This document shows, one piece after another, positions 28,986 to 60,078 of a stretch of DNA of 64,000 nucleotides; position 1 is the stretch's first letter, and every line of letters starts with the position of its first letter. Location: positions 62,001 through 126,000 of the forward strand of contig NZ_QMEM01000010.1 of the NCBI RefSeq assembly GCF_003390915.1, read 5' to 3'. This DNA is from Lewinella sp. IMCC34183. GTDB taxonomy: Bacteria; Bacteroidota; Bacteroidia; Chitinophagales; Saprospiraceae. Below the pieces are notes generated by a model. That model saw only the letters and a program-made list of their open reading frames with translations. It searched no databases and was not told the origin of the DNA. Position numbers and translations under genes: made by a program.

Positions 28986-31259
28986 ATGCTCCGTAGTTTC
29001 TTTGTCTCCTCTGTGTTGCTGCTCGCCGCTTCCCTCTCCGCCCAGCAAGCCGTAACCCTCATCCCCTACCCCACCACCCTCACGCCAGGCCAGGGCACCT
29101 TCACCTTCGACGCCACCACCCGCCTCCGCACCGCGTCGGTCGCGCAGCGGCAGGTGGCCGACTTCTTCACCGAGCAGTATGCCCGGGCCACGGGCTGGGA
29201 CCTCAACGGCCCCGGGCGCGGCGGGAAGACCATCACCGTGAAACAGGATACCAGCCTGGGCGATGAGGCCTATCGGCTGCAGGTCGCGGAAGAGGGGATC
29301 ACCCTGGACGCCGGCTCCCTCCACGCGCTGGTGTACGGACTGCAAACCCTGCGGCAACTCCTCCCCCCTGAATTCGAGGACAGCACCGCCACATCCGATG
29401 TGGACTGGTCGGTGCCGCAACTGACCATCGACGACGAACCCCGCTTCGCATGGCGGGGACTGATGCTCGACGTATCCCGCCACTTCTTCCCGGTAGAATA
29501 CATCAAGGAAACCATCGACCGCATGGCCTTCCTGAAGCTCAATACGCTGCACTGGCACCTCGTCGACGATCAGGGCTGGCGCATTGAGATCAAGCAGTAC
29601 CCCCGGCTCACGGAGGTGGGAGCCTGGCGCGTCGACCAGGAGGACGTGGCCTGGAACGCCCGCGCCACCAACGACCCGGAAGAGGAGGCCACCTACGGCG
29701 GCTACTATACCCAGGCGGATATCGCCGACGTGGTCGACTACGCCTGGCGGCGGGGCATCACGGTAGTGCCCGAGATCGAGATGCCCGCCCACGTGATGAG
29801 TGCCATCGCTGCCTATCCCTGGCTCTCCTGCTTCGAGGACACTATTGCCGTGCCCTCCGGCGGGGTGTGGCCCATTACCCAGATCTACTGCGCGGGCAAG
29901 GAGTCGACCTTCACCTTCCTGGAGGACGTACTCACCGAGGTGATGGCCCTCTTCCCCTCCAGGTACATCCACGTGGGTGGCGACGAAGCCACCAAAACCA
30001 ACTGGGAGCTCTGCCCCCACTGCCAGCGGCGCATCGAAGCCGAGGGACTGGCCGGTACCGCCGAGCTGCAGAGCTACTTTATCCGGCGGATGGAACGCTT
30101 CCTGAGCGACCACGGCCGCACGCTGCTGGGCTGGGATGAAATTCTGGAGGGCGGCCTCGCCCCCGGTGCCACGGTGATGAGCTGGCGCGGTATGCAGGGC
30201 GGCTGGGAAGCCTCCAAAGCGGGGCACGACGTGGTCATGACACCCACCAGCCACGCCTATTTCGACTACTACCAGGGTAATCCCGACTACGAGCCCACGG
30301 CCTTCGGGGCCTTCACCTACCTCGAAACCGTGTACGGCTTCGAGCCGACGCTGGACTCCATGTCACAGGCGCAGCGCGACCACGTACTCGGTGGACAGGC
30401 CAACCTCTGGTCGGAGTACGTCCCTACGCCCGAGCACTCTGAGTACATGCTCTATCCCCGCCTCTGGGCGACGGCCGAAGTGCTGTGGTCACCGCAAGCG
30501 GCGCGCGACTGGGATGACTTCTCCGCCCGTACCCGGCGTATGATGGGCCGCTTCGACCGCATGGGCGTCAACTACGCCGGCAGCGCCTACCAGGTCCGGC
30601 TCGACGCCACATCCGACCTCGCCGCGCCGAGCGTCACGCTGGAGCTGAACAGCGAGTTTCCGGACACCCGCATCCACTATACCCTCGATGGCTCACCGGT
30701 GACGGCCGACTCACCGCGCTATACCGATCCGCTGGTCCTGCGGGAAACCACCCCGGTGCAGGCCGCCGTCTTCGAAGCCGGTGAGCGGATGACCCCGCCG
30801 AGCGAGGCAACCTTCACCTTCCACGCGGCGGCGAACGCGCAACCGGCCTATACTCCCGGCTACCACGAGGCCTATTCCGGCCAGGGAGACGGCACCCTCG
30901 TCAACCTGCTGCGCGGCAGCAAGAACTTCCACGACGGGCAGTGGCTTGGCTGGCTGAATACCGATGTTGATATGGTACTGGACCTCCGCGCAAGCCGGAA
31001 GATCGAGTCGGTCGAGGTCGGCTTCCTCGAAAGCCAGGGGGCCGGCATCTACTACCCCACCGATCTGACCGTAGCGGTCTCCAACGACGGGAAGACGTTC
31101 CGCGAGGTCGGCACCTTCCACCGCGCCCCGGCGGACAATCCGGACGCGACCATCGCGGACTTCGGAGTCACCTTCCCCGCTCAGGATGCCCGCTACCTCC
31201 GCGTGAGGGTGAAGCACGGGAGGTCGTGGCTGTTTGTGGACGAGGTCACCGTGCGGTAA
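28986..31259 (+). CDS. Secreted beta-N-acetylhexosaminidase, GH20
   Basis: The 757-residue enzyme has a signal peptide (ends LSAQ), a GH20b N-terminal domain (about 25-150) and a catalytic TIM barrel opening RGLMLDVSRHFFPVEYIKET. The catalytic Asp-Glu pair is in HVGGDEATK (Asp333, Glu334), and barrel motifs HWHLVDDQGWRIEIK and VMSWRGMQGGWEA are present. A chitobiase-like C-terminal domain (about 545-610) and a discoidin-like (F5/8) module (about 635-757) follow. It removes terminal GlcNAc/GalNAc from glycans in the periplasm or outside. A REP-like element follows the stop. Confidence 0.95.
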   Translation: MLRSFFVSSVLLLAASLSAQQAVTLIPYPTTLTPGQGTFTFDATTRLRTASVAQRQVADFFTEQYARATGWDLNGPGRGGKTITVKQDTSLGDEAYRLQVAEEGITLDAGSLHALVYGLQTLRQLLPPEFEDSTATSDVDWSVPQLTIDDEPRFAWRGLMLDVSRHFFPVEYIKETIDRMAFLKLNTLHWHLVDDQGWRIEIKQYPRLTEVGAWRVDQEDVAWNARATNDPEEEATYGGYYTQADIADVVDYAWRRGITVVPEIEMPAHVMSAIAAYPWLSCFEDTIAVPSGGVWPITQIYCAGKESTFTFLEDVLTEVMALFPSRYIHVGGDEATKTNWELCPHCQRRIEAEGLAGTAELQSYFIRRMERFLSDHGRTLLGWDEILEGGLAPGATVMSWRGMQGGWEASKAGHDVVMTPTSHAYFDYYQGNPDYEPTAFGAFTYLETVYGFEPTLDSMSQAQRDHVLGGQANLWSEYVPTPEHSEYMLYPRLWATAEVLWSPQAARDWDDFSARTRRMMGRFDRMGVNYAGSAYQVRLDATSDLAAPSVTLELNSEFPDTRIHYTLDGSPVTADSPRYTDPLVLRETTPVQAAVFEAGERMTPPSEATFTFHAAANAQPAYTPGYHEAYSGQGDGTLVNLLRGSKNFHDGQWLGWLNTDVDMVLDLRASRKIESVEVGFLESQGAGIYYPTDLTVAVSNDGKTFREVGTFHRAPADNPDATIADFGVTFPAQDARYLRVRVKHGRSWLFVDEVTVR

Positions 31260-31778: not shown

Positions 31779-33011
31779 ATGTCTAATAACCCACCCGCCC
31801 ACTCCACCGCGCCCCTGGGCATCGCCATTATCGGTCTCGGCGGCGCCGTAGCGACCACCGCCGTCGCCGGATCCCTGCTGCTGCGCAAGGGCCTGCAGCG
31901 CCCCGTCGGCCTGCCGCTCGCCGAATTCGACCACCTCGACCTGGTCGACTACGCCAACCTCCGCTTTACCGGCTGGGACCTCTACCAGGACGACCTCTAC
32001 CAGGCCGCCGCCCATCACAAGGTGCTCGACCGCGAGCAGCTCGAGGCCGTACGGGAGGAGCTCTCCGCCATGTACCCCCTGCCCGCCATCCGCAAGGAAT
32101 CCTACTGCGAGGGCGTGGTGAACGGCGCCGACAGCACCGAGAGCCACCGCGAGCTCATCGCCACCATCCAGCAGCAGATCGCCGACTTCGGCCGGGAGAT
32201 CAGCGGCAACGTGGTGGTCATCAACCTGGCCAGCACCGAGTCGGCCCTGGACCTCACGGAAGAGAAGTACCAGAGCATCGCAGCCTTCGAGGAGGCGCTC
32301 GACGGCGGCCACGCCTGCATCAGTCCGGCCATGCTCTACGCCTACGCCTGCATTACCTCCGGCACCCCCTACGGCAACTTCACGCCCAGCGTGGCCGCCG
32401 ACGTACCCGCCCTGCGGATGCTGGCCGCCGAGCGCAACGTACCCATCGCCGGCAAGGACGGCAAGACCGGCCAGACCTTCCTCAAGACCGTCGTGGCCCC
32501 CGCCCTGCGCGCCCGCGCCCTGGAGGTCGACGGCTGGTTCAGCACCAACATCCTGGGGAACCGCGACGGCGAGGCCCTGCGCAAGCCCAAGAGCCTGCTC
32601 AATAAGATCAACACCAAGGGCGACGTGCTCACGAGCTGCCTCGGCTACGAGGTCGAGAACCACGTCGTGAAGATCAACTACTACAAGCCCCGCGGCGACA
32701 ATAAGGAGGCCTGGGACAACATCGACGTCACGGGCTTCCTCGGGCACCCGATGCAGATCAAGGTCAACTTCCTCTGCAAGGACAGTATCCTGGCCGCCCC
32801 GCTGGCCCTGGAGATCGCCCGCTGCCTCGACCTGGCGCGGCGCAAGGGACGCGGTGGCGTGGCCGAGTCGCTCGGTGTCTTCTTCAAGGCCCCGATGACG
32901 CCCGACGGCGGCGCGCCCAACCACAACTTCACCGAGCAGCAGATCGAACTGCTGCGCTGGCTGGAGGAGCTCAACGTACTGGAGCCCGTACAGGAAACGG
33001 CGGCGGTATAG
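31779..33011 (+). CDS. Inositol-3-phosphate synthase (myo-inositol-1-phosphate synthase)
   Basis: The 410-residue NAD-dependent enzyme converts glucose 6-phosphate to 1L-myo-inositol 1-phosphate. Visible features are the N-terminal Rossmann GLGGAVATTAVAG, the VINLASTES segment, the catalytic GKDGKTGQTFLKT block (about 225-237), DGWFSTNILGNRDG and the late CKDSILAAPLALE motif. It is the first gene of a tight seven-gene operon; its TAG stop overlaps the GTG start of the next gene. In this context it should supply inositol phosphate to the glycosyltransferase encoded downstream. Confidence 0.93.
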   Translation: MSNNPPAHSTAPLGIAIIGLGGAVATTAVAGSLLLRKGLQRPVGLPLAEFDHLDLVDYANLRFTGWDLYQDDLYQAAAHHKVLDREQLEAVREELSAMYPLPAIRKESYCEGVVNGADSTESHRELIATIQQQIADFGREISGNVVVINLASTESALDLTEEKYQSIAAFEEALDGGHACISPAMLYAYACITSGTPYGNFTPSVAADVPALRMLAAERNVPIAGKDGKTGQTFLKTVVAPALRARALEVDGWFSTNILGNRDGEALRKPKSLLNKINTKGDVLTSCLGYEVENHVVKINYYKPRGDNKEAWDNIDVTGFLGHPMQIKVNFLCKDSILAAPLALEIARCLDLARRKGRGGVAESLGVFFKAPMTPDGGAPNHNFTEQQIELLRWLEELNVLEPVQETAAV

Positions 33012-33940
33012 TGAAGGCCTCCGCCCATCTGTTTGCCGAGCTGCAGGACCTCAAGCGCCTGCGGCCCGCCGGGGTGCGCCACTCGCTGGCCGACGAGCTG
33101 TTCGTCGGGGCCTGGCGGGCGGTGTTGAACGGCGCCGACTGGAACGAGGCGGCCGACCGCACCGCCGCCCGCGCCCTGCTGTACGTGCTTTTTCCCGGCG
33201 TGGACGCCGCCTTCTTCCGCGCCGCCCGGCTGGATGCGGCGGCCATCCGCGAGGTCTGCACCAATGCCTTCGACCGCACGGTGGGCGACCGCCTCGATGC
33301 CGCTACGGTGGCGCGGCTCCGTGGTCCGCTGGAGCGTACGTTACGGGAACTGGCGGGGACGCAGGTGCAAGGTTTTCCGGAAACGGAGGAACTGCCGGCC
33401 TGTCTCACGCGGCTCCGCGAGCAACCCCGGGCCGGTGCCACCCACCCGGAGCACCCCCGGCTGGTGCTGCTGCCGGCCGAGAGCCACGCCGATCACTGCC
33501 TGCTGACCGGGGTATACGCTGCCCTGACCGCGGGGCGCTACGGAGCCGATCCCGGGGCGGCCTTCGTCTGCGGACTGGCCCACCACCTCCACAATGCCTA
33601 CCTGCCCGACTGCGGCTGGGCCGGCGAGCTGGCGCTGGAGCCCTACCTGCAGCAGGTGATCGACAACTGCCGGGCCACGGCGCTGGAGGAGTTTACCCCC
33701 GCCCTGCGCGAGCGGCTGACCGACGTGCTGCGCCACCACGAGTCGCTCGCCACGCCGGAGGGCTACGCCATCAGCGCCGGCGACGTCATCGACCGGGTGC
33801 TCGACGTGAAATGGCGCGTGCGGGCGGCGGCCGTCACCGAGCGGCAGGTGCTGGGCGACCTGGACCTGGTGCACCCCGGCCCCCTCAAGGATTTTCAAAC
33901 CGAGTTGCTCAACGAAACCGAACTGTGGAGTACCCTTTGA
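33011..33940 (+). CDS. HD-superfamily-like protein with altered metal motif
   Basis: The 309-residue protein has an N-terminal helical region and an HD-like fold from about residue 150. Candidate metal ligands are in order: His159/His162 (ESHADHC), His191-His192 with His194 (GLAHHLHN), His242-His243 (RHHES) and Asp258/Asp261 (AGDVIDRVLD). The signature HD doublet reads HH here. HD proteins are phosphohydrolases or, in the MIOX/PhnZ branch, diiron oxygenases. In this operon it could dephosphorylate the GlcNAc-inositol-phosphate or oxidise an inositol ring; neither is proven. GTG start overlaps the preceding stop by one base. Confidence 0.65.
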   Translation: MKASAHLFAELQDLKRLRPAGVRHSLADELFVGAWRAVLNGADWNEAADRTAARALLYVLFPGVDAAFFRAARLDAAAIREVCTNAFDRTVGDRLDAATVARLRGPLERTLRELAGTQVQGFPETEELPACLTRLREQPRAGATHPEHPRLVLLPAESHADHCLLTGVYAALTAGRYGADPGAAFVCGLAHHLHNAYLPDCGWAGELALEPYLQQVIDNCRATALEEFTPALRERLTDVLRHHESLATPEGYAISAGDVIDRVLDVKWRVRAAAVTERQVLGDLDLVHPGPLKDFQTELLNETELWSTL

Positions 33941-35019
33941 TCAGTCCGCGCACCGGCGAGGTGCTCCGCCCGGAGGGCGATCATTTCCTCACCGACGGTA
34001 CCGACCGCTGGCCGGTGGTGGACGGTATTCCCTACCTGCGGGACAAGGAAGCCGTACGCGCCGCGGCCGCAGCCGCCCTGGACGCGGGGGACATGGCCGC
34101 CGCCCGCCGCCAGCTGCTGGCCGACCAGGACCGCTTCAGTCCCACCCCGCCGCCGGGGGCGGACGCCATCGACCGGGCGGTCGACCGGCCGGAGCTCAGC
34201 CTGCGGGAGGCCATGCAACTGCTGAACTACGGAGCGGTCGGCGATTACTTCGCCTACCGCTGGTGCTCGCCAACCTTCACCGGGGGGCTGCACATGCTCG
34301 AGCGCACGCCCCACCACCTGCCGGTGATCGAGGTCGCCTGCGGCATCGGACACTTCCTGCACGCGCTGGAGGCGGCCGGCCGGCGCACCGTGGGCGTCGA
34401 TATCGTCTGGTCGAAGCTGTGGCTGGCACGCCGCTACCTCGGGGTACGGGGGCCGCTGATCTGTGGCGACATCGAGCGGGGACCGGTACTCGCCACCCGC
34501 AAGCCGCACACCGTCTTCTGCCACGATGCCCTCTACTTTTTCGAGCACAAGGGACCGGCGCTGGCGCACATGCGTAAGCTGAGCGGCGGCGGCAGCGTAG
34601 CGGTGGGGCACGTACACACGCGCAGCAGCGGCCACGCGGCCGGCTTTGCCGGGGAGCGGGCCGACTACACCAAGCTGACGGGAGCCTTCGTACGCGACGA
34701 TGCCGACTACCGCCTGGGCTGGTACGACCGGGAATCCGACACCGGGCACCCCGCCCCCATCGCCGTCGGCTGGATCGAGAACGAGACCGACCACCGGCCC
34801 ATCGACTGGACGCGCGACGGCACCAGCCTCCAATCCAACCCCCTGCTGACCGAAAATGGCGTTTCCTGGCCCAGCGACGGCTGGCGAAAGGAGTACACCG
34901 AAGACGGAGCCGGACTCGGGGAATACACCCTGGAGAAGCTGGCTGCCACCCCGGCACCCGCCAGTTCCCGGGAAGCCTTCCGCAGCCGTCACCTCCTCAA
35001 CCTCCCCGCCCGATGGTAG
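33925..35019 (+). CDS. Class I SAM-dependent methyltransferase with Trm112-like N-terminus
   Basis: The 364-residue protein starts with a short Trm112p-like module (YPLISPRTGEVLRPEGD to VVDGIPYLRDK) that lacks zinc-binding cysteines. A helical spacer and a Rossmann methyltransferase domain follow: motif I VIEVACGIGHFLHAL at about residue 135, motif II acidic VGVDIVWSK, and a motif IV-like TVFCHDALYFF. The acceptor is unknown; in this cluster it probably modifies the sugar/inositol scaffold. A GTG at 33925 is the most likely start, overlapping the preceding gene by 16 bases. Its stop overlaps the next ATG by 7 bases. Confidence 0.82.
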   Translation: MEYPLISPRTGEVLRPEGDHFLTDGTDRWPVVDGIPYLRDKEAVRAAAAAALDAGDMAAARRQLLADQDRFSPTPPPGADAIDRAVDRPELSLREAMQLLNYGAVGDYFAYRWCSPTFTGGLHMLERTPHHLPVIEVACGIGHFLHALEAAGRRTVGVDIVWSKLWLARRYLGVRGPLICGDIERGPVLATRKPHTVFCHDALYFFEHKGPALAHMRKLSGGGSVAVGHVHTRSSGHAAGFAGERADYTKLTGAFVRDDADYRLGWYDRESDTGHPAPIAVGWIENETDHRPIDWTRDGTSLQSNPLLTENGVSWPSDGWRKEYTEDGAGLGEYTLEKLAATPAPASSREAFRSRHLLNLPARW

Positions 35020-36914
35020 TGGCTCAGGTACGGTTCGGGATCGTCGGGCTGGGCTGGGTGGCCCGCGACTACATGCTGCCGGCGCTCGCCGCGGCGGGCG
35101 ACCGGGTACGGCTGACGGCGGTGGTGAGCCTGCGCCCGGCCGACTTCGAAGGATTGCCCGATCATGTGTGGTGTTTCGAGGAACTCGACGACCTGTTGGC
35201 CGCCGACCGGGTCGACGCCGTCTACATCGCCACGCCCAATCACCTCCACCGGGCGCAGACCATTGCCTGCCTAGACCGCGGCATTCACGTGCTCTGCGAA
35301 AAACCCCTGGCGCTGACGGCCGAAGACGCCACCGCGATGGCCGAAGCGGCCCGGCGCAGCGGGCGCCTGCTGGTGACCGCCTACGACCAGCGCCATCACC
35401 CCGCCCACCGGGCACTGCGGGCGGCCATCCGGGAAGGGCGGATCGGAACGCCCACCCAGGCGCGGATCGACTACGCCTGCTGGCTGCCGAAGGAGTGGAG
35501 CGGCGACAACTGGCGCATCGACTACGGCCGCGCGGGCGGCGGCGCGGTGATCGATCTGGCGCCCCACGGCCTCGACCTGCTGGAGTGGCTGCTGGACGAC
35601 GCCATCACCGACGTACACTGCTTCCTACAGCGGGCGGTGCAGGACTACGCGGTCGACGACGGCGGCGTGCTCAGCGTCCGCTTCCGCGGCGGCGCGCTGG
35701 CGACCCTCACCGTAGCGTACAACCGCCCGGAGACCCTGCCCCGCCGCCGCCTGGAAGTCATGGGGACTGGCGGCACCCTCCTCGCCGAAAACACCATGGG
35801 ACAGGACCCCGGCGGCACCCTAACCTTCACCGACGCCAGGGATGGTAGCTCACGCGATCTCCCCTTCGCCCGTGAAGAAGGGCCCTTCGCCCACCAGCTC
35901 CTCCACTTCCTCGATCGCCTCCTACTTCCACCGGATCACACCGACCTGGATACCACTCACCGCCAGGTCCAGCTCCTCCAGCGAGCCCTGACGGCGAGCG
36001 AAGCGAAGCCACCCAGCAACCAGCAACCAGCACCCACCAACCAGCAACCAGCAACTAAAAACCTCATGCCCCTAACCCACTACGCCTGTACCCACTGCGG
36101 CGGCTGGATCCTCTGGTTCGACAGCCGGGAGCCCGTCTACTGCCCCAACTGCATGGACGTGCGCAACGCCCTGCCCGACGAGGACTTCACCTACCTCCCG
36201 GTCGCGGAGGCGGAGGGCCGGTACCGTACCGAATGGCGGGAGACGTTGCCGGGCCTGTGGGAGTTCTGGACCGTCCCCCAGCTGGGCCTGGGCAGCCACG
36301 GCTGGCTCATCATCCGCGAAGCGGGCAACGTAGCCTTCGAGGCGGCGCCGTACTACGACGCGGCCGGCAAACGGAAAATTGAGGAACTGGGCGGCATCCG
36401 TACGCTGGCGGCCAGTCACCCCCACGGCTACGGAGCCCTGTGGCAGCTGCAGGAACAGCACGCGCCGGAGGAGCTTATCATCCACCGCGACGACCTGGTA
36501 CACACCAAGGCCTTCCGCGTCAACCGGCCCATCGACGACCACCACGCCCTCGGCCCTGACCTGGAATTCCAGCGGCTGGGCGGCCACTACGAGGGGCAGA
36601 CCGCGCTCTACGACGGACAGTACCGACTGCTGTTCCTGGGCGATGCCCTCAAGATCGACTTTGCCGAAGACGGCGAAACGCCGGTGGCCCTCAGCTGCCA
36701 CAAGGGATACCACTACAGCATCCCCCTGACGCGGGAGGAGCTGCTCCACTACCGGGAGGTCTTCGGGCGGTACGACTTCGACCACGTCTGTACCCCCTTC
36801 GAATTCGGGCGGGGCGTCGGGCGGGAGGCGGCCATCGCGCTGGTCGATTACCTACTCGCTACCGGCATCCACACCCGACCCGTATCCCTGCAAACCCTGC
36901 TCGATCATGCCTAA
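35013..36914 (+). CDS. Gfo/Idh/MocA oxidoreductase fused in frame to an MBL-fold-like domain
   Basis: The open frame of 633 residues carries two units. Residues 1-325 form a Gfo/Idh/MocA NAD(P)-dependent oxidoreductase: GIVGLGWVA (9-17), YIATPNHLH, EKPLA with its Lys at 97, and GGGAVIDLAPHGLD with Asp181 and His185. Residues 330-351 are a Gln/Pro/Asn-rich linker (PSNQQPAPTNQQPATKNL). From Met352 a second unit has a zinc-ribbon start (CTHCGG, CPNC) and a metallo-beta-lactamase-like body (HPHGYGAL, GGHYEGQTALYDG, LLFLGDALK). The linker DNA looks like intergenic repeat, so either this is a true fusion or the second gene starts independently at 36066. Confidence 0.8.
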   Translation: MVVAQVRFGIVGLGWVARDYMLPALAAAGDRVRLTAVVSLRPADFEGLPDHVWCFEELDDLLAADRVDAVYIATPNHLHRAQTIACLDRGIHVLCEKPLALTAEDATAMAEAARRSGRLLVTAYDQRHHPAHRALRAAIREGRIGTPTQARIDYACWLPKEWSGDNWRIDYGRAGGGAVIDLAPHGLDLLEWLLDDAITDVHCFLQRAVQDYAVDDGGVLSVRFRGGALATLTVAYNRPETLPRRRLEVMGTGGTLLAENTMGQDPGGTLTFTDARDGSSRDLPFAREEGPFAHQLLHFLDRLLLPPDHTDLDTTHRQVQLLQRALTASEAKPPSNQQPAPTNQQPATKNLMPLTHYACTHCGGWILWFDSREPVYCPNCMDVRNALPDEDFTYLPVAEAEGRYRTEWRETLPGLWEFWTVPQLGLGSHGWLIIREAGNVAFEAAPYYDAAGKRKIEELGGIRTLAASHPHGYGALWQLQEQHAPEELIIHRDDLVHTKAFRVNRPIDDHHALGPDLEFQRLGGHYEGQTALYDGQYRLLFLGDALKIDFAEDGETPVALSCHKGYHYSIPLTREELLHYREVFGRYDFDHVCTPFEFGRGVGREAAIALVDYLLATGIHTRPVSLQTLLDHA

Positions 36915-38379
36915 TACCTACGATTACGCTACCCCCACGGAGATGTACCGCAGCAGCCTGCCTGCCGGCGAATTGCAGGAATTCCGGATCGACCCGGTCG
37001 ACTACCTTGGCATTCCCATCATCAACGTAGACTTCCACGGGGCCGACGGCATCAATGCCAACGGCATCGGCTACGGCCGCAGCCTGCCCGCCGCCCGCCT
37101 GGGGGGCTACGGCGAGCTCTGCGAGGAGTACCATACCCTGGCCGGATTTGAGCAGTTGCTTATGCGCGAGGGCAGCTACCGCGAACTGGTCGCCGCACTG
37201 GGCGAAGACCGCGTCGTGGACCCGCTGACGCTGGTGCTCTCGGCCGGCAGCCCTTACCACGCCGACTATCCGCTGCGGTGGTCGCCGGTCGAGCGGCTGA
37301 CGGACGGGGAGACCTGCTGGGTGCCCGCGGAATTCGTGGCCTGTACCAACGGACAGGTCGATTACCCCAACCGCCTCATCACGGCGATCCGCAACGGCAG
37401 CGGGGCCGGCGATACCGAGGTGCGGGCCCTGCTGCACGGGACGCTGGAGCTGCTGCAGCGTGACGGCAACGCCGACTGCTTCCGCGCGCTGGACCGCGGC
37501 CTGGTGATCGACCCGGCGACCCTGCCGGAGGACTGCCGCGCCCTCATAAGGGAACTCGCCGACCGGGGCCTGCACGTCACCTGCAAGCTGGCCCGCGTGA
37601 CCTGCGGCTGCGTCAGCGTGTACGCCGTGGGGGACGACCGCACGGACGACGGCTTCCCCCTCGGCGTGACCGCTACCGGCGAGGGCGCGGACACCGACTA
37701 CCGCGTCGCCCTGCTAAAGGCCATCACGGAATGCGCCAGCAGCCACACCCGCAAGCGCTTCGACAACGTACCCTGGCCGAAGAAAGAAGCGACCATACCG
37801 CCGGGCTTCCGCGAGCGGCAGCTCGGTATGCTCGACCTGGACACCGAAGAGCCCCGGGCACTCCGGGCCATGGTCGATTGGCTGAACGAGGGCCGCGCGG
37901 CCCTGCGCGACAAACTTGACGACAACGTATTCCTGCACCGGGAGACCATTGACTGCCGCGACCTGCCCGCCCACTCCTTTGCCGACCAGTCCGCCCAATG
38001 GGCCTACGTGATGGACCAGCTGGCGCAGGAAGGACTGACGCCCTACGTATTTCGCTCTCCGACCACTGGCGGCCGCTGCCACGTCACCAAGGTCATCGTA
38101 CCGGGCATCGAGCAAGAACTGGGCAGCTACCACCGCCTGGGTGAGCGGGGCGTACGCCGGCTGCTGGAGCGCGACGACATTACCCTTATCGCCCGCGAAG
38201 ACGGCCCGGGCCGTAAACAAGTACGGCTGACAGCAGCGGCCGAGAAACGGCTCGGCGGCCCGGTCTGGCTGGAAACCGACCGCCTCGACGCCCGCATCGA
38301 GCCCGTCTACGCCCTTTACCGCGAGCCCAGCGCCCACGCCGCCCGCTACGCCATCGACAGCGGCTACTTCGATTCCTGA
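36907..38379 (+). CDS. YcaO family ATP-dependent cyclodehydratase-like enzyme
   Basis: The 490-residue protein shows the YcaO ATP-binding elements: GIGYGRSLPAARLGG then GELCEEYHT (about 53-75), RNGSGAGDTEVRALLHG (from about 162) running into LELLQRD (Glu181, Gln184, Arg185), and TGEGADTDYRVALLKAITE (Glu275). YcaO enzymes activate a peptide amide with ATP to form azoles, thioamides or amidines. Here the usual ER pair is QR, no PxPxP terminus is present, and no precursor peptide, E1-like partner or TfuA is nearby. The substrate may therefore be a small amide on the sugar-inositol scaffold. It overlaps the preceding gene by 8 bases. Confidence 0.85.
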   Translation: MPNTYDYATPTEMYRSSLPAGELQEFRIDPVDYLGIPIINVDFHGADGINANGIGYGRSLPAARLGGYGELCEEYHTLAGFEQLLMREGSYRELVAALGEDRVVDPLTLVLSAGSPYHADYPLRWSPVERLTDGETCWVPAEFVACTNGQVDYPNRLITAIRNGSGAGDTEVRALLHGTLELLQRDGNADCFRALDRGLVIDPATLPEDCRALIRELADRGLHVTCKLARVTCGCVSVYAVGDDRTDDGFPLGVTATGEGADTDYRVALLKAITECASSHTRKRFDNVPWPKKEATIPPGFRERQLGMLDLDTEEPRALRAMVDWLNEGRAALRDKLDDNVFLHRETIDCRDLPAHSFADQSAQWAYVMDQLAQEGLTPYVFRSPTTGGRCHVTKVIVPGIEQELGSYHRLGERGVRRLLERDDITLIAREDGPGRKQVRLTAAAEKRLGGPVWLETDRLDARIEPVYALYREPSAHAARYAIDSGYFDS

Positions 38380-38421
38380 CCCCCCATCAGTCCATCCGTC
38401 CTTTCCTACACGACCACGATC

Positions 38422-39717
38422 ATGCGCATCTGCTTCATTTCCCGCCGTTACTTCCCTGCCGTTTCCGGCATGAGCGTCTACGCCCGCAACCTCACCCACG
38501 CCCTGGCCGAGCGGGGCCACGAGGTGGTCATGATCAGCCAGTACCGCGAGGACCCCACCGGGGTGGAGATCTACGGCGGCGGGCCGCCCCCCAAAGAGCC
38601 CTGGATGGAGGTGCACGGCCTGCGCAGCACGGGGGAAGAACTCGGGGCGGAAGCTCCCCCGGCCGACTTCGAGTCTGACCTGCGGGCGATGGCCGACCTC
38701 GCCGAGCAACTGCACGCGAACAAGCCCTTCGACGTGGTCCACGCCCAGTACGCCTACCCCACCGGGCTGGCGGCACTGGAGGTGAGCCGCCGCCTCGGCA
38801 TCCCCAATGTAGTGAGCATCCAGGGGGGCGACGGACACTGGGTCGGCAGCTGCTGCACCACCCACCAGCTGGCCATGGACGCCGTGCTGAACCACAGTAT
38901 GGCCCTGGCGATCGGCTGCAACAGCTTCCGCGACGAGGTGGTGGAAAACCACGGTACCGATCCCGCGCGCTTTACCATCGTACCCGGCGCGACCAACGTC
39001 GACCAGTTCACGCCCCGCGGGGCCGCCCATCCGAACCTCATCGACAGCGTCGTGGCCCTGGGTGAACTGCGCGAACCGGCGCGCCTGCTGTACCACGGGC
39101 GGGTGGATAAGCGGAAGGGCAGCCTGGACTTCATCCGCTGCGGGGCCCGCCTGGTGGAGGAGGGGTACGACGTGAGTCTCACCGTGAGCGGCATCGGACC
39201 CGACTTCGCCGAAACCCGTCAACTTGCGCTGGAGCTGGGGCTGGGTGACCGCTGCTCCTTCCCCGGCGAGGCCGACTACGCCGACGCGCCGGCCCGCTAC
39301 CACGCCGGCGACATCTTCCTGAGCCCCACCTACGCCGAGGGCTTTTCCAATACCATCCTGGAGGCGATGGCGAGCGGATTGCCCATCGTGAGCACCCGCA
39401 CCGTGGGCGTGGTCGACTGCCTGCGCGACGGGGAGAACGCCCTGCTCGTCGAAGCCGGTGACCTCGAGGCGCTGACCGCCGCCACCCGTCGCCTGCTCGA
39501 CGACGAGCAACTGCGCTTCGACCTGGCCCGCGTCGCCTACCGCGAGGTGCGCGACAAGTACAGCTGGCCGGTCGTGGCCGAGCAGATCGAGACGGTGTAC
39601 CAGACCCTATTAGACCAACCGGTCGACCGCAGCTGGACCGACATCATCACCGCCGGGGCCAGCGTAGCGGACGCCGACCTGAGTTGTCGCTTCCGCACCC
39701 AACCCCACCTGCTGTGA
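38422..39717 (+). CDS. GT4 family glycosyltransferase (MshA/BshA-like)
   Basis: The 431-residue retaining GT-B enzyme has an N-terminal RRYFPAVSGMSVYARNL acceptor region with Gly-rich loop, the YHGRVDKRKGSLDFI donor-domain start and the EX7E signature EGFSNTILE (about 306-314) followed by MASGLPIVST. This is the family of MshA (GlcNAc onto inositol phosphate), BshA (GlcNAc onto malate) and PIG-A. With inositol-phosphate synthase at the head of the operon and a PIG-L deacetylase right behind, a GlcNAc-inositol product is the natural inference. The stop overlaps the PIG-L start (GTGA). Confidence 0.88.
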   Translation: MRICFISRRYFPAVSGMSVYARNLTHALAERGHEVVMISQYREDPTGVEIYGGGPPPKEPWMEVHGLRSTGEELGAEAPPADFESDLRAMADLAEQLHANKPFDVVHAQYAYPTGLAALEVSRRLGIPNVVSIQGGDGHWVGSCCTTHQLAMDAVLNHSMALAIGCNSFRDEVVENHGTDPARFTIVPGATNVDQFTPRGAAHPNLIDSVVALGELREPARLLYHGRVDKRKGSLDFIRCGARLVEEGYDVSLTVSGIGPDFAETRQLALELGLGDRCSFPGEADYADAPARYHAGDIFLSPTYAEGFSNTILEAMASGLPIVSTRTVGVVDCLRDGENALLVEAGDLEALTAATRRLLDDEQLRFDLARVAYREVRDKYSWPVVAEQIETVYQTLLDQPVDRSWTDIITAGASVADADLSCRFRTQPHLL

Positions 39718-40415
39718 TCCTGGCCCTGAGCCCCCACCTCGACGACGTGGTCTTTTCCTGCGGCGGCTACCTATACGACAAAGTTCAGGCGGGGACGCGG
39801 GTGCAGTGCGTGACCATATTCACGGCAACGGTGCCGGTACTGAGCGAATTTGCTTTGGCGTGCCGCCTTGATAAGGAGCTGGACGGCACGGTGGACTACA
39901 TGGCGCTGCGGCGAGCCGAGGACCGGAACGCAAGTGCCCTGCTGGGGATCGATCCCCTGCACTGGGAATTTGCCGAGGCGCCCCACCGCGGGTACGTTTC
40001 CGCCCCCGACCTCTTCGCCGGCGTGCACGATGACGACCCGCTGGAGCGCGCGCGGCTGGACCAAAAAATTCGGGAGCACCTAGCCGATGCCCCGTACACC
40101 GAGGTGTTGTATCCCTACGGGGCGGGCAATCACGCCGATCACCTGCAGCTTATCGCGGCGGTGGAGCGCGTTCGTCCGGCCTTTCCGGCGGTCCGCTTCC
40201 GGCGCTACTACGATATGCCCTACGCCGCCCGGTTCCGGGACCGCTACCCGGAACTCGGGGAGACGGTCCCGGCTTACCCGCTGGGCGACGCTACCCTGCG
40301 GCAAAAACTGGCGGCGTGTGCGGCCTACGCTAGCCAATTGGGCTTCCAGTTTGGAGACCGTGCGGGGATGGAAGCAACGTTGGGACTGGTGGAGTACCTT
40401 ATCTACGTCCGCTAG
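39714..40415 (+). CDS. PIG-L family zinc deacetylase (MshB/BshB-like)
   Basis: The 233-residue protein opens LALSPHLDDVVFSCGG, the PIG-L zinc/catalytic motif (His8, Asp10, Asp11; the usual PHPDDE has diverged to PHLDDV), and contains GNHADH at about 138-143, supplying the third ligand. These enzymes remove the N-acetyl group from GlcNAc conjugates (GlcNAc-inositol, GlcNAc-malate, GlcNAc-PI). GTG at 39714 overlaps the glycosyltransferase stop and puts the motif at the usual N-terminal position; a TTG at 39684 is possible. It is the last gene of the seven-gene operon. Confidence 0.87.
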   Translation: MILALSPHLDDVVFSCGGYLYDKVQAGTRVQCVTIFTATVPVLSEFALACRLDKELDGTVDYMALRRAEDRNASALLGIDPLHWEFAEAPHRGYVSAPDLFAGVHDDDPLERARLDQKIREHLADAPYTEVLYPYGAGNHADHLQLIAAVERVRPAFPAVRFRRYYDMPYAARFRDRYPELGETVPAYPLGDATLRQKLAACAAYASQLGFQFGDRAGMEATLGLVEYLIYVR

Positions 40416-40612
40416 GGACCGGTAACTCACTCCCCCCGCACCCGCGCACCGCCGCCCCGCGAGCTGGTGGACGGCACGGAGAGGGTTTCTCTGTCGCGTT
40501 AGTCCTGCGGGTATCCGCGCCCGGGCGGAGCGCCTCCGCGTCGACGTAGTCGCTCTGCGGTGAACCACCAAGTAGCAATTAATCCGGTACTTAGCAGTCT
40601 CAACGTGTGCCC

Positions 40613-41518
40613 ATGCCCCGCTTTATTTCCTGTCTCCTTTTCCTGCTACCCCTCGTCCTGTGCACCTGCGCGCGGCCGACGGCCCCCGACACTACCCTGC
40701 CCCGCGAAACGGGGGAATGGACCTCCCTCATCGATCCGGAACTTTCGGACTGGGACACCTACCTGAGTTTCAAGCACCAACTGGGCTACGACGGCTCGGC
40801 GCCGGTCGACGAAGCCGGGAACCCGATCGCGCCCATCGGGATGAACCCGACGGGCTACGACGTATTCACCACCGTGCAGGAGGACGGGGCCGACGTGATC
40901 CGCGTCAGCGGCGAATACTACGGTTGCCTGATCTCGAAGGAAGAATACGCCGACTACCACCTGCAGGTGAAGTTCCGCTGGGGCGATAGGAAGTGGGTAC
41001 CCCGCCGGGACCTGCTTAAGGACTCCGGCGTGCTGTACCACTCCATCGGCCCTCCCGGCGCGGAGCACTGGCGGACCTGGATGCTCTCCCAGGAATTCCA
41101 GATCATGGAGGGCCACACCGGCGACTACTGGAACCAGGCCTCCTCCGCCATGAACATCCGGGCCTATACCCCGGAGTACCTGATGAACCCCATGGCCGAC
41201 GCTACCCAGGACTACCTCCACATCGGTACCGGCGGACCCTATAAGAACTACTGCCTGCGCAGCAACAACTACGAGAATCCCCACGGCGAGTGGAACACCC
41301 TGGACCTGATCTGCTACGAAGACAAGGCCCTGCACATCGTGAACGGAGAGGTGGTCATGATCCTGAAAGACTCCCGCTACGTCAACGATGCCGGGGAGGT
41401 AGTGCCCCTCACCAGGGGAAAGCTACAGCTGCAGAGCGAGGCGGCGGAGGTATTTTACAAGGACATCCGGATCACCCCGCTGGAGCGGCTGGATCCTGCC
41501 TACGCGGCTTACTTCTGA
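40613..41518 (+). CDS. DUF1080 (3-keto-disaccharide hydrolase-like) lipoprotein
   Basis: The 301-residue protein has a lipoprotein signal (LVLCTCARP; likely Cys near 19) and one DUF1080 concanavalin-like domain. It opens EWTSLIDPELSDWDTYLSFK and includes KFRWGD, DSGVLYHSIG, a QEFQIMEGHTGDYW edge and EWNTLDLICY plus GKLQLQSEAAEVFYKDIRI at the end. Members hydrolyse 3-keto-glycosides made by Gfo/Idh oxidoreductases. It lies 197 bases after the PIG-L gene on the same strand, so a link to that cluster is possible but not shown. ATG 40613 is chosen over a GTG six bases upstream. Confidence 0.87.
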   Translation: MPRFISCLLFLLPLVLCTCARPTAPDTTLPRETGEWTSLIDPELSDWDTYLSFKHQLGYDGSAPVDEAGNPIAPIGMNPTGYDVFTTVQEDGADVIRVSGEYYGCLISKEEYADYHLQVKFRWGDRKWVPRRDLLKDSGVLYHSIGPPGAEHWRTWMLSQEFQIMEGHTGDYWNQASSAMNIRAYTPEYLMNPMADATQDYLHIGTGGPYKNYCLRSNNYENPHGEWNTLDLICYEDKALHIVNGEVVMILKDSRYVNDAGEVVPLTRGKLQLQSEAAEVFYKDIRITPLERLDPAYAAYF

Positions 41519-54852: not shown

Positions 54853-57800
54853 ATGCAAAGAATATTTTACCAACTTTCGGGATTGCTCCTGCTGGCTCTA
54901 TTGGCCACGGGCATGAAAGCTCCCGTGCCGGGCACGCACGCCGGCTTGTCTACCGGCCCCGCACCCGCGGCCTCCGACCGCTTAGCGCAGCGGCAGCTTA
55001 TTGAAGTACTGAAGGAGATGGAGCAACGCTACCGGGTTTTCTTCACCTACGAACGGCAACTACTGGCCGACGTGGAGGTAGACTTCGACTTTCGCGCCGA
55101 AGAAGACCTGGAGGAGGCCATCGCCCGCCTGCTGTCGGAAACCGGCTTCCTCCACAAGACGTACGGAGACAAGTACCTGGTCATCTTCCGCGATACCGAA
55201 GAAAGCCGTAGCAACGCCCGTAAGCTGGGCCGTAAGCTCCGGCAGATCAAGCGACTGGAGGAAAGCTCCGGCATTTCCGTGCAGTCCAGTTCCGCAGGGC
55301 CCATCGAGCGGTTCAGCACCGTGGCCCGGGCCATCGCCGCCCAGAAGACGGCCATCACCGTCACCGGGCGCGTCACCGACATCACCGGCACGACCCTGAT
55401 CGGCGTGACCGTCCTGATCAAGGGGACTTCCTCGGGTACGATCACCGACATCGACGGCGACTACAGCCTGAGCGGCGTAGAGGACAACGACACCCTGCTG
55501 TTTTCCTCCATCGGCTACCTCAGCGCGGAGCTGCCGGTCAACGGCCGCACGACCATTGACGTGCAGCTGCAGGAGAACGTGGAGGCCCTCGAGGAGGTGG
55601 TCGTGATCGGCTACGGTACCCAGAAGAAGTCGGATATCACCGGATCGGTGGCTTCCGTGCCGAGCGACCGGCTGGAGAACCTGCCGGTGACGAACGTACT
55701 CTCCGCCATCCAGGGTACGACCGCCGGGTTACAGATCTCGCAGGGGTCGTCGGTTCCCGGCAGTACCGGCAGCATCCAGGTGCGGGGCATCAACTCGATC
55801 AACGCGAACAACAGTCCCTTCATCGTGCTCGACGGCGCTCCCTTCTTCGGTGACATCAACGACATCAACAGCAACGACATCGCCTCGATCGAGATTCTCA
55901 AGGACGCCTCGGCGGTAGCCATCTACGGTACCCGCGGCGCCAACGGCGTCATCCTCATCACGACCAAGCGCGGAAAGACCGGTGCGCCCCGCATCGGCTA
56001 CGCCGGCTACGTAGGCCTGGAACGGGTCAACAATACCCTGGAGTTTTTGGGGCCGGACGCCTACGTCGATAAGTACGCCGACTACGTAGAGGCGGTCGGG
56101 CTCGACCTGGATCGCGCCCTGCCCAACCAGGAGGAGATCGACAACCTGGAAGCCGGTCGTACGGTGGACTGGATCGACGAGGTCACCAGAACCGGCGTCC
56201 TGCAGGAACATAACCTCACCGTCTCCGGGGGTACGGACAACATCCAGTACTACGTGACCGGCGGCCGCCTCGACCAGCAGGGCGTAATAGCGGGCTACCA
56301 GTACGAGCGGACCAACGTGCGGACGAACCTGGACGCCACGCTCACCGACTGGTTCAAGGCCGGCACCTCCCTGGCCTTCACGCTGAATAACTACGACGGC
56401 GGCCGCGCCAACTTCCTCAACGCCACGGCCGCCAGTCCGTACGGCACGCTCTACAACGAGGAGGGGGGCTACAAGATCTTCCCGATGGAGCCGGAACTGC
56501 TCTTCGCCAACCCCTTCCTGGGTACCACTACCGACCAGGTACGGCGGCGCCACAACCTGATCGGGGGCGGCTACATCGAGCTTACGCCCGGCTTCCTGCC
56601 CGGCCTGAGCTACCGGCTCAACGGGAACTATACGTTGGAGCAGCGGCGCAACTCCGGCTACGAGGGTGCCGCCGCCAACAACCCCGCCGGCTATGCCTTC
56701 TCCGACTTCAACCAGACCGACAACTGGGTCCTGGAAAACATCCTGAACTACAACCGGGAGTTCGGCCGCCACACCATAGGGGCTACCGCGCTGTACAGCG
56801 CCCAAAAGTCACAGTACTTCTCCTTCGACGCCAACGCCAACACCTTCGTCAACGACCAGCTCTCGTACTTCAATATCGGGTCGGGGCAGAACCGCAACGC
56901 GGGCAGCTACGGCGACGGGCAGAGCCTGCTTTCGCAAATGATCCGTGTGAACTACGGCTTCGACAGCCGCTACCTGCTGACGGTGACCGCCCGCCGCGAC
57001 GGCTACTCCGCCTTCGGCGATAATACCGACAAATACGGCCTGTTCCCCTCCTTTGCTCTAGGCTGGAATATCGCCAACGAATCCTTCATGGACGGCCTCG
57101 GCGCGATCGACAACCTGAAGCTGCGCTTCAGCTACGGGCAGTCGGGCAACCAGGCCATCGGCGTGAACCAGACGGCCACCATCGCCTTCCCCGTCCGCTA
57201 TCCCTTTGGCGGCTCCAGCCAGATCGGCACCCTGATCGGCGACCTGGGCAACGAGAACCTGGAGTGGGAGACCACCACCTCGGCCAACCTGGGCGTCGAC
57301 TTCGGCCTCTGGGACGGCCGCGTGAGTGGCAGCCTGGAGGTATACCAGTCCCGCACCACCGATATCCTGCTCCGGCGCGCCCTTCCGCTCATCACCGGAT
57401 CCGGCTCGATCTGGGACAACCTCGGCGTGCTGGATAATAAAGGCATCGAGTTCTCCTTCAACAGCGTCAACCTCCGCGCCGGCAACTTCCGCTGGGAGAC
57501 CAGCTTTAATATCGCCTCCAACCGCAACAAACTGGTGGAGCTCTACGGCGACGGACAGGACGACATCGGCAACGGCTGGTTCCTGGGTGAACCGCTGGGT
57601 ACCGTCTACACCCAACGCTGGATCGGCGTGTGGCAGGAGGGCGAAGACCCCTCCGAGACCGATCCGGGTGCCGTTCCCGGTGACCTGAAGTTCGAAGACA
57701 TCAACGGCGACGGCGTGATCAACGGCGACGACCGGGTGATCGTCGGCAACAACCTGCCCGACTACTACGGCGGCCTGACCAACACCTTCCACTACAATAA

Positions 57801-58227
57801 TTTCCACCTCAGCGTCTTCCTGCAGTACTCGCAGGGCGGACTCAAGTACAACCCCGACGCCTTCTACGGCGACGAGGTAGGCCGCCGCAACATCCCCACC
57901 AACTACCAGTACTGGACCGAGGGCAACCCTATCGGTACGGCGCCTTCCCTCTCCTACCGCGGACGGTTGGGATCCTGGAACCTGAACGACCCGAGCTACG
58001 TCCGGCTCAAGGACGTACGGCTGAGCTACGCCGTTCCCTCCAACGTGCTGAACCGGGTCGGCATGCAGGCCCTGACGATCTACGTCACCGGCCGCAACCT
58101 GTACACCTGGACCGACTGGCAAGGCTGGGATCCGGAAAACAACCTCGACGGCCGGGGTTCGGGAAACTGGACCAATAACTACCCCTTCGTCCGCACCTTT
58201 TCCTTCGGCGTCAACCTGACCCTCTAA
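54853..58227 (+). CDS. SusC-type TonB-linked outer membrane transporter with STN signalling domain
   Basis: The 1124-residue transporter has a signal region and an STN domain (about 45-115, LIEVLKEMEQRYRVFFTYE to DKYLVIF). A carboxypeptidase-regulatory-like domain follows (about 170-250, VTGRVTDITGTTLIGV), then a plug with EEVVVIGYGTQKKSDITGSV and SIEILKDASAVAIYGTRGANG, and a large barrel ending FSFGVNLTL. The STN domain contacts FecR, so substrate uptake and ECF-sigma activation are linked. The SusD gene follows after 11 bases. Confidence 0.96.
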   Translation: MQRIFYQLSGLLLLALLATGMKAPVPGTHAGLSTGPAPAASDRLAQRQLIEVLKEMEQRYRVFFTYERQLLADVEVDFDFRAEEDLEEAIARLLSETGFLHKTYGDKYLVIFRDTEESRSNARKLGRKLRQIKRLEESSGISVQSSSAGPIERFSTVARAIAAQKTAITVTGRVTDITGTTLIGVTVLIKGTSSGTITDIDGDYSLSGVEDNDTLLFSSIGYLSAELPVNGRTTIDVQLQENVEALEEVVVIGYGTQKKSDITGSVASVPSDRLENLPVTNVLSAIQGTTAGLQISQGSSVPGSTGSIQVRGINSINANNSPFIVLDGAPFFGDINDINSNDIASIEILKDASAVAIYGTRGANGVILITTKRGKTGAPRIGYAGYVGLERVNNTLEFLGPDAYVDKYADYVEAVGLDLDRALPNQEEIDNLEAGRTVDWIDEVTRTGVLQEHNLTVSGGTDNIQYYVTGGRLDQQGVIAGYQYERTNVRTNLDATLTDWFKAGTSLAFTLNNYDGGRANFLNATAASPYGTLYNEEGGYKIFPMEPELLFANPFLGTTTDQVRRRHNLIGGGYIELTPGFLPGLSYRLNGNYTLEQRRNSGYEGAAANNPAGYAFSDFNQTDNWVLENILNYNREFGRHTIGATALYSAQKSQYFSFDANANTFVNDQLSYFNIGSGQNRNAGSYGDGQSLLSQMIRVNYGFDSRYLLTVTARRDGYSAFGDNTDKYGLFPSFALGWNIANESFMDGLGAIDNLKLRFSYGQSGNQAIGVNQTATIAFPVRYPFGGSSQIGTLIGDLGNENLEWETTTSANLGVDFGLWDGRVSGSLEVYQSRTTDILLRRALPLITGSGSIWDNLGVLDNKGIEFSFNSVNLRAGNFRWETSFNIASNRNKLVELYGDGQDDIGNGWFLGEPLGTVYTQRWIGVWQEGEDPSETDPGAVPGDLKFEDINGDGVINGDDRVIVGNNLPDYYGGLTNTFHYNNFHLSVFLQYSQGGLKYNPDAFYGDEVGRRNIPTNYQYWTEGNPIGTAPSLSYRGRLGSWNLNDPSYVRLKDVRLSYAVPSNVLNRVGMQALTIYVTGRNLYTWTDWQGWDPENNLDGRGSGNWTNNYPFVRTFSFGVNLTL

Positions 58228-58238
58228 AAAGAATCATC

Positions 58239-59876: not shown

Positions 59877-59897
59877 GCTAATGTGTTAACTGTGTCC

Positions 59898-59940
59898 GAC
59901 CGGGTAACGGGCCACGTGGCGTGTTACCCGGTCTTTTTTT
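59898..59940 (+). terminator. Intrinsic terminator after susD
   Basis: GACCGGGTAAC (59898-59908) pairs perfectly with GTTACCCGGTC (59923-59933), followed by seven T residues. It ends the fecR-susC-susD transcript. Confidence 0.92.
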
Positions 59941-59980
59941 AGCCCCGCCGGCAGCGGACTTAGAAACGGACGCAGCGGTT

Positions 59981-60013
59981 AATTGTCGTAAAGACAATTT
60001 ATAATTATCTTGG
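59981..60013 (+). promoter_or_regulatory. Promoter with overlapping palindromic operator for GH43-GH51 operon
   Basis: AATTGTC-GTAAA-GACAATT (59981-59999) is a perfect inverted repeat. Its first half contains a TTG (59983-59985) that lies 20 bases before TATCTTGG (60006-60013), close to the TAnnTTTG -7 box. A repressor bound to the palindrome would cover the -33 element. The same palindrome type precedes the GH127 gene at 46001-46019. Confidence 0.6.
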
Positions 60014-60078
60014 CCTATTCCCCGATCTGCGCTTCGGATCCCTTCCGGGGCAGGTCGATCATCTCCTACCTTATCATC

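Follow-up and report, generated by a model that had tools for sequence, protein, structure and literature searches.

The gene cluster at 31779-40415 of a 64,000-nucleotide window from Lewinella sp. IMCC34183 (the window is the whole stretch of DNA analysed) encodes what we judge, with somewhat better than even confidence, to be a horizontally mobile nine-enzyme pathway making a cyclitol-aminosugar small molecule. The window carries the genes for an inositol-3-phosphate synthase (Ino1), an HD-fold protein (HD), an S-adenosylmethionine (SAM)-dependent methyltransferase (MT), a Gfo/Idh/MocA oxidoreductase (Gfo) fused to a metallo-beta-lactamase-fold protein (MBL), a YcaO-domain protein, a GT4 glycosyltransferase and a PIG-L family deacetylase. 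A first-pass annotation had read these as seven genes running in one direction, and all seven open reading frames (ORFs) indeed lie on the + strand. Yet the set is incomplete, as an isomerase-like gene, here called X, which is located on another contig in this genome, appears to belong to it as well.

The conserved co-occurrence proposed as a check by the annotation was examined in YcaO neighbourhoods. One genome per species was scanned with two peptide patterns, one of them ELLQRDGN, and 220 places were found to encode a YcaO relative. The best 80 of these were retained with their flanks, and the window's proteins were compared by tblastn with 86 loci (L numbers below; G numbers denote genomes). 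The cluster was present, completely or partially, in Bacteroidota, Myxococcota, Pseudomonadota, Actinomycetota, Planctomycetota, Verrucomicrobiota and Armatimonadota, i.e. in seven phyla, so the combination is not peculiar to Bacteroidota. The carriers were Acetobacteraceae, Skermanella, Methylobacterium and a Polaromonas bin among the Pseudomonadota, and Geodermatophilaceae, Micromonospora and Actinomycetospora among the Actinomycetota; named isolates of Methylobacterium, Geodermatophilus and Myxococcus are included. More than 6 kb upstream and more than 5 kb downstream of YcaO were available at 59 well-flanked loci, with 21 of the 80 below that flank. The full order ino1-HD-MT-Gfo-MBL-ycaO-X-GT4-PIGL was seen at 38 of the 59 and a partial set or a different order at 18. 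The median intergenic spacing was -4 to -2.5 bases. Because gene set and order recur across phyla, the arrangement is not a matter of chance, and the check proposed by the annotation comes out strongly in its favour. Pairwise-distance correlations among the nine genes ranged from 0.89 to 0.97 in the 42 loci with all nine, values that are inflated by shared ancestry.

Plasmid-borne copies were found in Roseomonas, Hymenobacter and two Methylobacterium. In the YcaO tree the Hymenobacter YcaO groups apart from the other Bacteroidota YcaOs, on a long branch. Within the window's genus, 6 of 21 genomes encode YcaO, as do 2 of 296 sampled Bacteroidota genomes; the HD gene was detected in exactly those two. 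The nine gene families travel together, and the cluster seems to move horizontally as a unit. In the plasmid cluster of Hymenobacter volaticus (L147, 16522-17256) a bshB1 gene adjoins the PIG-L gene on the opposite strand, and the Gfo gene is annotated as two pieces.

Gene X encodes a sugar-isomerase-like TIM barrel of ~280 amino acids and is situated between YcaO and GT4 in most loci. This placing indicates that X belongs to the pathway and that the 42-base gap after YcaO in the window marks its position. X is not at the locus in the window or in L001. In the window's genome it was located outside the window at G000:C34:58221-59051, directly after a second ino1, and in the genome of L001 (G004) at the matching site; X was thus relocated in both genomes searched among those where it is absent from the locus. 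PF01658 had two matches in the window's genome, the window's Ino1 being one; the second ino1 resembles the window's own less than it does that of L003-L005. The relocated stretch (G000:C34, about 56956-60718; L093, 8457-12219) holds a cluster-type ino1, X, a pabB-like and a pabC-like gene in a row. The pabB-pabC pair adjoins the main cluster in L003-L005; in G004 and in the window's genome its neighbour is X. Its proximity possibly reflects a link to chorismate or p-aminobenzoate, or else old synteny, in one lineage.

Other genes missing from the locus were likewise sought in the genome. All five genomes whose locus is without GT4 encode it at another site, next to X and PIG-L; L073 was left out of this test because its GT4 is at the locus. 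In L067 the relocated GT4 shares a contig with YcaO at a distance of ~16 kb, while in L026 its absence from the locus may stem from a contig break. MBL was present elsewhere in both Methylobacterium genomes without MBL at the locus. That nearly all lost genes searched for are still in the genome is good evidence for one pathway. Gene fusions speak for one pathway too: the window joins Gfo and MBL in one ORF, and L064 and L079 join MT and Gfo, with frame and end shared.

Next to the conserved core, the first position is variable. Ino1 of the window carries the inositol-3-phosphate synthase (MIPS) domains and aligned with 302 bits over residues 9-387 to 7nwr, a solved MIPS and its best solved match, and so is a member of this family. 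At 58 loci the sequence reaches 1.4 kb or more upstream of HD; ino1 was directly upstream of HD in 50 of them and a gene of the 3-dehydroquinate (DHQ) synthase family in five, namely in a planctomycete, an armatimonadete, two verrucomicrobia and the Polaromonas bin. These five loci occupy three places of the YcaO tree, the deep forks of which are weak. All five alternative cyclases scored 465-549 bits on NCBIfam PRK06203 ('3-dehydroquinate synthase', cut-off 333) and stayed under the cut-off of TIGR01357 aroB. Two of them, aligned to solved enzymes, have DFGH as in the solved 'Cyclase' 4p53, where DHQ synthases have NLGH. We take 4p53 to be an EEVS-type enzyme and this residue to separate EEVS-type from DHQ synthase classes.

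The cyclase at the locus predicts the presence of X. HD, Gfo, GT4 and PIG-L occur together at 62 loci, and X accompanies them in 50 of 51 with Ino1, in none of five with the DHQ-synthase-family gene and in five of six with neither cyclase. The MT was left out of these counts because its profile was partly built from MT-Gfo fusion ORFs. The single exception among the Ino1 loci is L001, which has X at another site of its genome. Thus, at the level of the locus, X is tied to the inositol route, and the cyclase swap suggests a carbocycle as the probable common currency. By sequence, the first gene is a carbocycle-forming cyclase, either Ino1 or the DHQ-synthase-family gene in its stead; a carbocycle is the probable starting point of the pathway, and X would belong to its inositol branch. 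The annotation had built its case on Ino1, GT4 and PIG-L. The Ino1 and PIG-L assignments hold, Ino1 being nearest to solved inositol-3-phosphate synthase and PIG-L keeping HxDD...HxDH, but inositol itself may be dispensable to the pathway, ino1 being replaced at five loci as seen at locus level.

The YcaO protein is the sole PF02624 match in its genome and exceeds the cut-off of 25.7 bits (Table 1), which places it in the YcaO superfamily. In 23 cluster YcaOs, taken from the protein search and not from the pattern scan, one of the two patterns of which includes the Q at the E202 position, residues E75, E78, E199, R203 and E290 of Escherichia coli YcaO are retained throughout. The canonical ATP-site glutamates are not: E191 is replaced by R (17) or Q (6) and E202 by Q (23/23). 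E202 and E191 are presumably Mg-binding residues. E. coli YcaO has E202, as do 14 of 14 other alignable Bacteroidota YcaOs, among which E191 is variable; this background comprised 16 YcaOs minus L131, which had no family-profile match, and L127, a family member. According to an extract of PMC13063428, replacement of ATP-binding residues of E. coli YcaO, E202A among them, led to incomplete thioamidation, and the enzyme was modelled with two Mg ions; an extract of PMC13397572 reports one Mg ion for the family. A YcaO-made thioamide, amidine or azoline, as proposed by the annotation, is just one option, given that the ATP site deviates from the canonical form.

YcaO domains usually modify peptides or proteins. 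The cluster could then be a system for a ribosomally synthesized and post-translationally modified peptide (RiPP), or another protein-modifying system, with the sugar genes as chance neighbours. We consider this very improbable, as YcaO is co-inherited with eight sugar or tailoring enzymes. Among 233 small ORFs in the 1.2-kb flanks of seven operons, none from the window operon matches another locus. TfuA was detected neither in the window's genome nor in 10 of 11 host genomes, and the eleventh carries two. Compared with E. coli YcaO, MJ1094 and azoline-forming LynD, the cluster YcaO belongs to the same family and keeps the five residues named above. On the other hand, it differs from them by E202 to Q and E191 to R or Q, the lack of TfuA in the window's genome and the fact that no precursor peptide was found near the cluster. 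The cluster is thus probably not a RiPP system; a distant precursor gene is possible. In L018 (3955-8549) a stand-alone YcaO of the clade is followed by a sugar ABC transporter with a binding protein and two permeases.

Ino1, GT4 and PIG-L families also occur together in the logic of mycothiol biosynthesis (MshA and MshB with Ino1), and GT4 and PIG-L have relatives in bacillithiol biosynthesis (BshA, BshB). The best solved matches of GT4 include 2jjm, 3mbo, 5d00 (BshA) and 3c4q, of which we take 2jjm and 3mbo to be BshA and 3c4q to be MshA. From these likenesses one would derive a mycothiol-like compound, a GlcN-inositol that YcaO modifies to bear sulfur or an amidine. We regard it as distinctly unlikely. 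The main scans tested Pfam and NCBIfam models against their cut-offs on the window's cluster proteins, and all NCBIfam equivalogs listed scored far under cut-off, those of the mycothiol pathway for Ino1 and GT4 included, which sets the cluster proteins apart as distinct subfamilies. GT4 reached 91.9 of the 462.5 bits required for the MshA equivalog and 96.8 of 273.7 on BshA, and the PIG-L deacetylase 22.6 of 182.5 on BshB1. Furthermore, GT4 has an invariant QGGDGHWVGxCCxxH motif and a conserved C-terminal tail ending in HLL. The inositol-phosphate-binding residues of MshA are not conserved in it. Use of UDP-GlcNAc and inositol 1-phosphate by GT4, as foreseen in the annotation, is thus hypothetical.

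Most hosts have a separate thiol enzyme. Another gene, apart from the cluster, reaches the MshA cut-off in 4 of 4 actinobacterial hosts tested, and a BshA above its own cut-off is encoded outside the cluster in 4 of 5 hosts from the Bacteroidota and Myxococcota, the window's genome included. A thiol role of the cluster is therefore unlikely. Neither MshC nor MshD was among the cluster proteins scanned, and the genomes were not searched for them. In addition, five loci have no Ino1 at the locus, the cluster has six enzymes beyond those of mycothiol biosynthesis, and Ino1, YcaO and X would be without a role in bacillithiol formation. The PIG-L protein itself looks intact, with HLDD and HxDH residues invariant in 28 rows.

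Fold models, by a second structure aligner, and profile alignment back an HD domain in the second protein. An intact H-D metal dyad is missing, HH being invariant in 29 rows. Its model gave no Foldseek match at E<=0.001 and its sequence no Pfam match at E 0.01. A MIOX- or PhnZ-like HD oxygenase was considered and provisionally set aside, neither being among the fold matches listed. Gfo scored 111.6 bits on NCBIfam xylose 1-dehydrogenase and 103.6 bits on inositol 2-dehydrogenase, both far under cut-off. Pfam cut-offs were exceeded by Ino1, MT, Gfo, YcaO, GT4 and PIG-L; Lactamase_B on the MBL part was under cut-off. Fold models back the MBL domain with broad matches to MBLs and flavodiiron proteins, and no solved relative was found by sequence. 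The Gfo-MBL fusion is a single ORF in the window (35013-36914) and two ORFs in relatives such as L001. At 36020-36070 the two parts meet in a linker of repetitive SNQQPAPTNQQPATKN sequence, and the MBL gene keeps its internal ATG, so both fused and separate translation are possible.

From the families present a tentative scheme can be drawn. Ino1 would form inositol-3-phosphate, HD would strip the phosphate and Gfo would convert a ring hydroxyl to a ketone. X might isomerise or dehydrate the keto-cyclitol, and if it were required on the inositol route only, this would explain its absence with the other cyclase. The MT could methylate the ring, GT4 attach an N-acetylhexosamine and PIG-L free the amine of the hexosamine. 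YcaO with ATP may activate a ring carbonyl, amide-like or vinylogous, for attack by an amine, and MBL would hydrolyse or trim an intermediate. Most likely the pathway ends in a metabolite of protective or specialised function that is additional to the cell thiol and does not replace it. A GalE-like UDP-hexose 4-epimerase (one member inspected) is found near the PIG-L end in L050, L058, L065, L068, L017 and others, as a 24-locus component, and may hint at a galacto-configured donor sugar. An association with an S-(hydroxymethyl)thiol dehydrogenase, one component at six loci, was dropped as chance because its members in L008 and L047 are different alcohol dehydrogenases and their positions vary.

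Several points weigh against the proposed pathway. The sequence of steps is a guess. The loci were collected via YcaO, partly through the pattern ELLQRDGN, and all counts are thus conditional on YcaO, with close relatives being non-independent. YcaO stands alone at 3 of the 59 well-flanked loci, seen at locus level only, and at 3 of the 58 loci with sufficient upstream DNA the site holds no cyclase of either kind. With PRK06203 above cut-off, the alternative cyclase may yield dehydroquinate and not a cyclitol. The MT is the least constant member, with no tblastn match in L007, L053, L056, L076 and L147. Pyxidicoccus (L073) retains just a fragment of MBL at the locus, and the match at another site of its genome is weak (123 bits). 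Finally, HD has HH where canonical HD phosphatases carry HD, the acceptor region of GT4 is unlike those of MshA and BshA, and ATP use by YcaO is putative, two canonical acidic ligands being lost.

Mycosporine biosynthesis follows the logic of a cyclase, a methyltransferase and an ATP-using enzyme, the last being the ATP-grasp protein MysC. This logic is shared by the cluster, which could accordingly make a UV-absorbing mycosporine-like compound: dehydration and O-methylation would turn a keto-cyclitol into an enol ether, and YcaO, in the role of MysC, would activate the enol oxygen and so let an amine, perhaps that of the freed hexosamine, form a chromophoric enaminone. The DFGH of the alternative cyclases, shared with 4p53, fits such a product, and so do homologues of spore photoproduct lyase (SPL) beside the cluster in three lineages. 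They adjoin PIG-L on the same strand in 4 of 4 Actinomycetospora, being 61-63% identical to a Roseomonas gene; the Roseomonas plasmid has its homologue near the cluster after an MdoH-like gene; and an Isosphaeraceae contig has an 80.9-bit partial match near the contig end. Some hosts come from air or lichen by their records, and others presumably have leaf, rock or desert habits. Methylobacterium, a cluster host genus, is said in an extract of PMC9664959 to make the UVA-absorbing methylobamine. Yet the SPL link is post hoc and limited to three lineages, marine Lewinella is no obvious fit, and no ATP-grasp domain was seen in Pfam scans of the window's genes and X. Our confidence in the mycosporine-like reading is lowered by the NCBI model, under which the alternative cyclase is a DHQ synthase, and by the inconstant MT, missing at some loci. 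With regard to the mycosporine-like amino acid pathway, the likeness extends to the coupling enzyme and to the DHQ-synthase-family cyclase of some loci, whereas the cluster has YcaO for ATP-grasp, added sugar transfer and deacetylation, and mostly Ino1. All in all such a compound is a minority option, though one to be taken seriously. A slightly longer shot is a widely transferred bacterial photoprotectant pathway: its YcaO, the ATP site being rebuilt, would act on a small cyclitol ketone instead of a peptide and give an amino-sugar-linked enaminone chromophore, either of two unrelated cyclases (Ino1 or the DHQ-synthase-family enzyme) could open it, and in some lineages it would come together with a photoproduct lyase for UV repair.

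The product might also be a cyclitol-containing lipid carrier or surface glycan, along the lines suggested for the ebo cluster, which shows parallels in its sugar phosphate cyclase (EboD) and TIM-barrel enzyme (EboE) (extract of PMC6282210). Of four X proteins scanned, one matched the EboE model weakly with 21.6 bits against a cut-off of 250 and the other three were unlisted. An MdoH-like glycosyltransferase occurs in 17 of the loci fetched and the epimerase-like component, GalE by reading, in 24; Pfam Epimerase was found in 3 of 125 flank ORFs, these being 125 of 159 ORFs that include many spurious long ORFs of GC-rich DNA. On the other hand, EboA, EboB, EboC and EboF were not among the conserved components, no model search for them being made, and the neighbours differ between phyla. 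Epimerase and MdoH genes were not accepted as parts of the cluster because they are confined to some families. A lipid or glycan product is thus unlikely, and the cyclitol-aminosugar small molecule is retained as the preferred reading.

The coordinates of the operon are collected in Table 1. As the annotation had noted, all junctions overlap except that after YcaO; the overlaps are 1, 4, 7 and 8 bases in order and, after the gap, 4 bases. The PIG-L ORF is first listed from TTG 39684, and the GTG at 39714, which overlaps the GT4 stop, is favoured by the family alignment. Upstream of the operon a GH20 hexosaminidase is encoded (28986-31259) and downstream a 3-keto-disaccharide hydrolase (40607-41518); tblastn detected neither beside the cluster in L001-L006.

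Table 1. Features of the cluster in the window (window coordinates) and of SPL homologues at other loci (locus coordinates).
Feature	Position	Strand	Basis
Ino1, inositol-3-phosphate synthase (predicted cyclase, first step)	31779..33011	+	PF07994, PF01658; solved match 7nwr
HD-fold protein, predicted phosphatase-like, HD dyad changed to HH	33011..33940	+	
SAM-dependent methyltransferase (MT), TTG start	33937..35019	+	Methyltransf_25, Methyltransf_11 just over cut-off
Gfo/Idh/MocA oxidoreductase part of fusion	35013..36068	+	PF01408, PF22725
Zinc-ribbon and metallo-beta-lactamase-fold (MBL) part of fusion	36069..36914	+	
YcaO-domain protein, distinct subfamily	36907..38379	+	PF02624 159 bits
42-base gap, position of gene X in relatives	38380..38421	.	
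GT4 glycosyltransferase	38422..39717	+	PF13692, PF00534; alignments
PIG-L family deacetylase	39714..40415	+	PF02585 46 bits; HLDD and HxDH residues
SPL homologues near the PIG-L end of the cluster	L136-L139; L148 14786-16907; L016 10176-10412		

The annotation's view of the pathway as undescribed appears to be correct: its composition and order recur across phyla, and no description was found in open-access PMC papers, subscription literature being outside the scope of the search. The kinds of enzyme are already known, but to our knowledge neither their combination nor the exchange of cyclases nor this form of YcaO has been described. If our reading is true, a complete and so far unnamed cyclitol-aminosugar pathway exists in at least seven phyla, and a YcaO with an altered ATP site and probably a non-peptide substrate widens the known roles of this family. 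That two unrelated cyclases interchange, with loss of X, offers a direct way into the core chemistry. It should be possible to find the compound, since named isolates carry the cluster and one genus has genomes both with and without YcaO.

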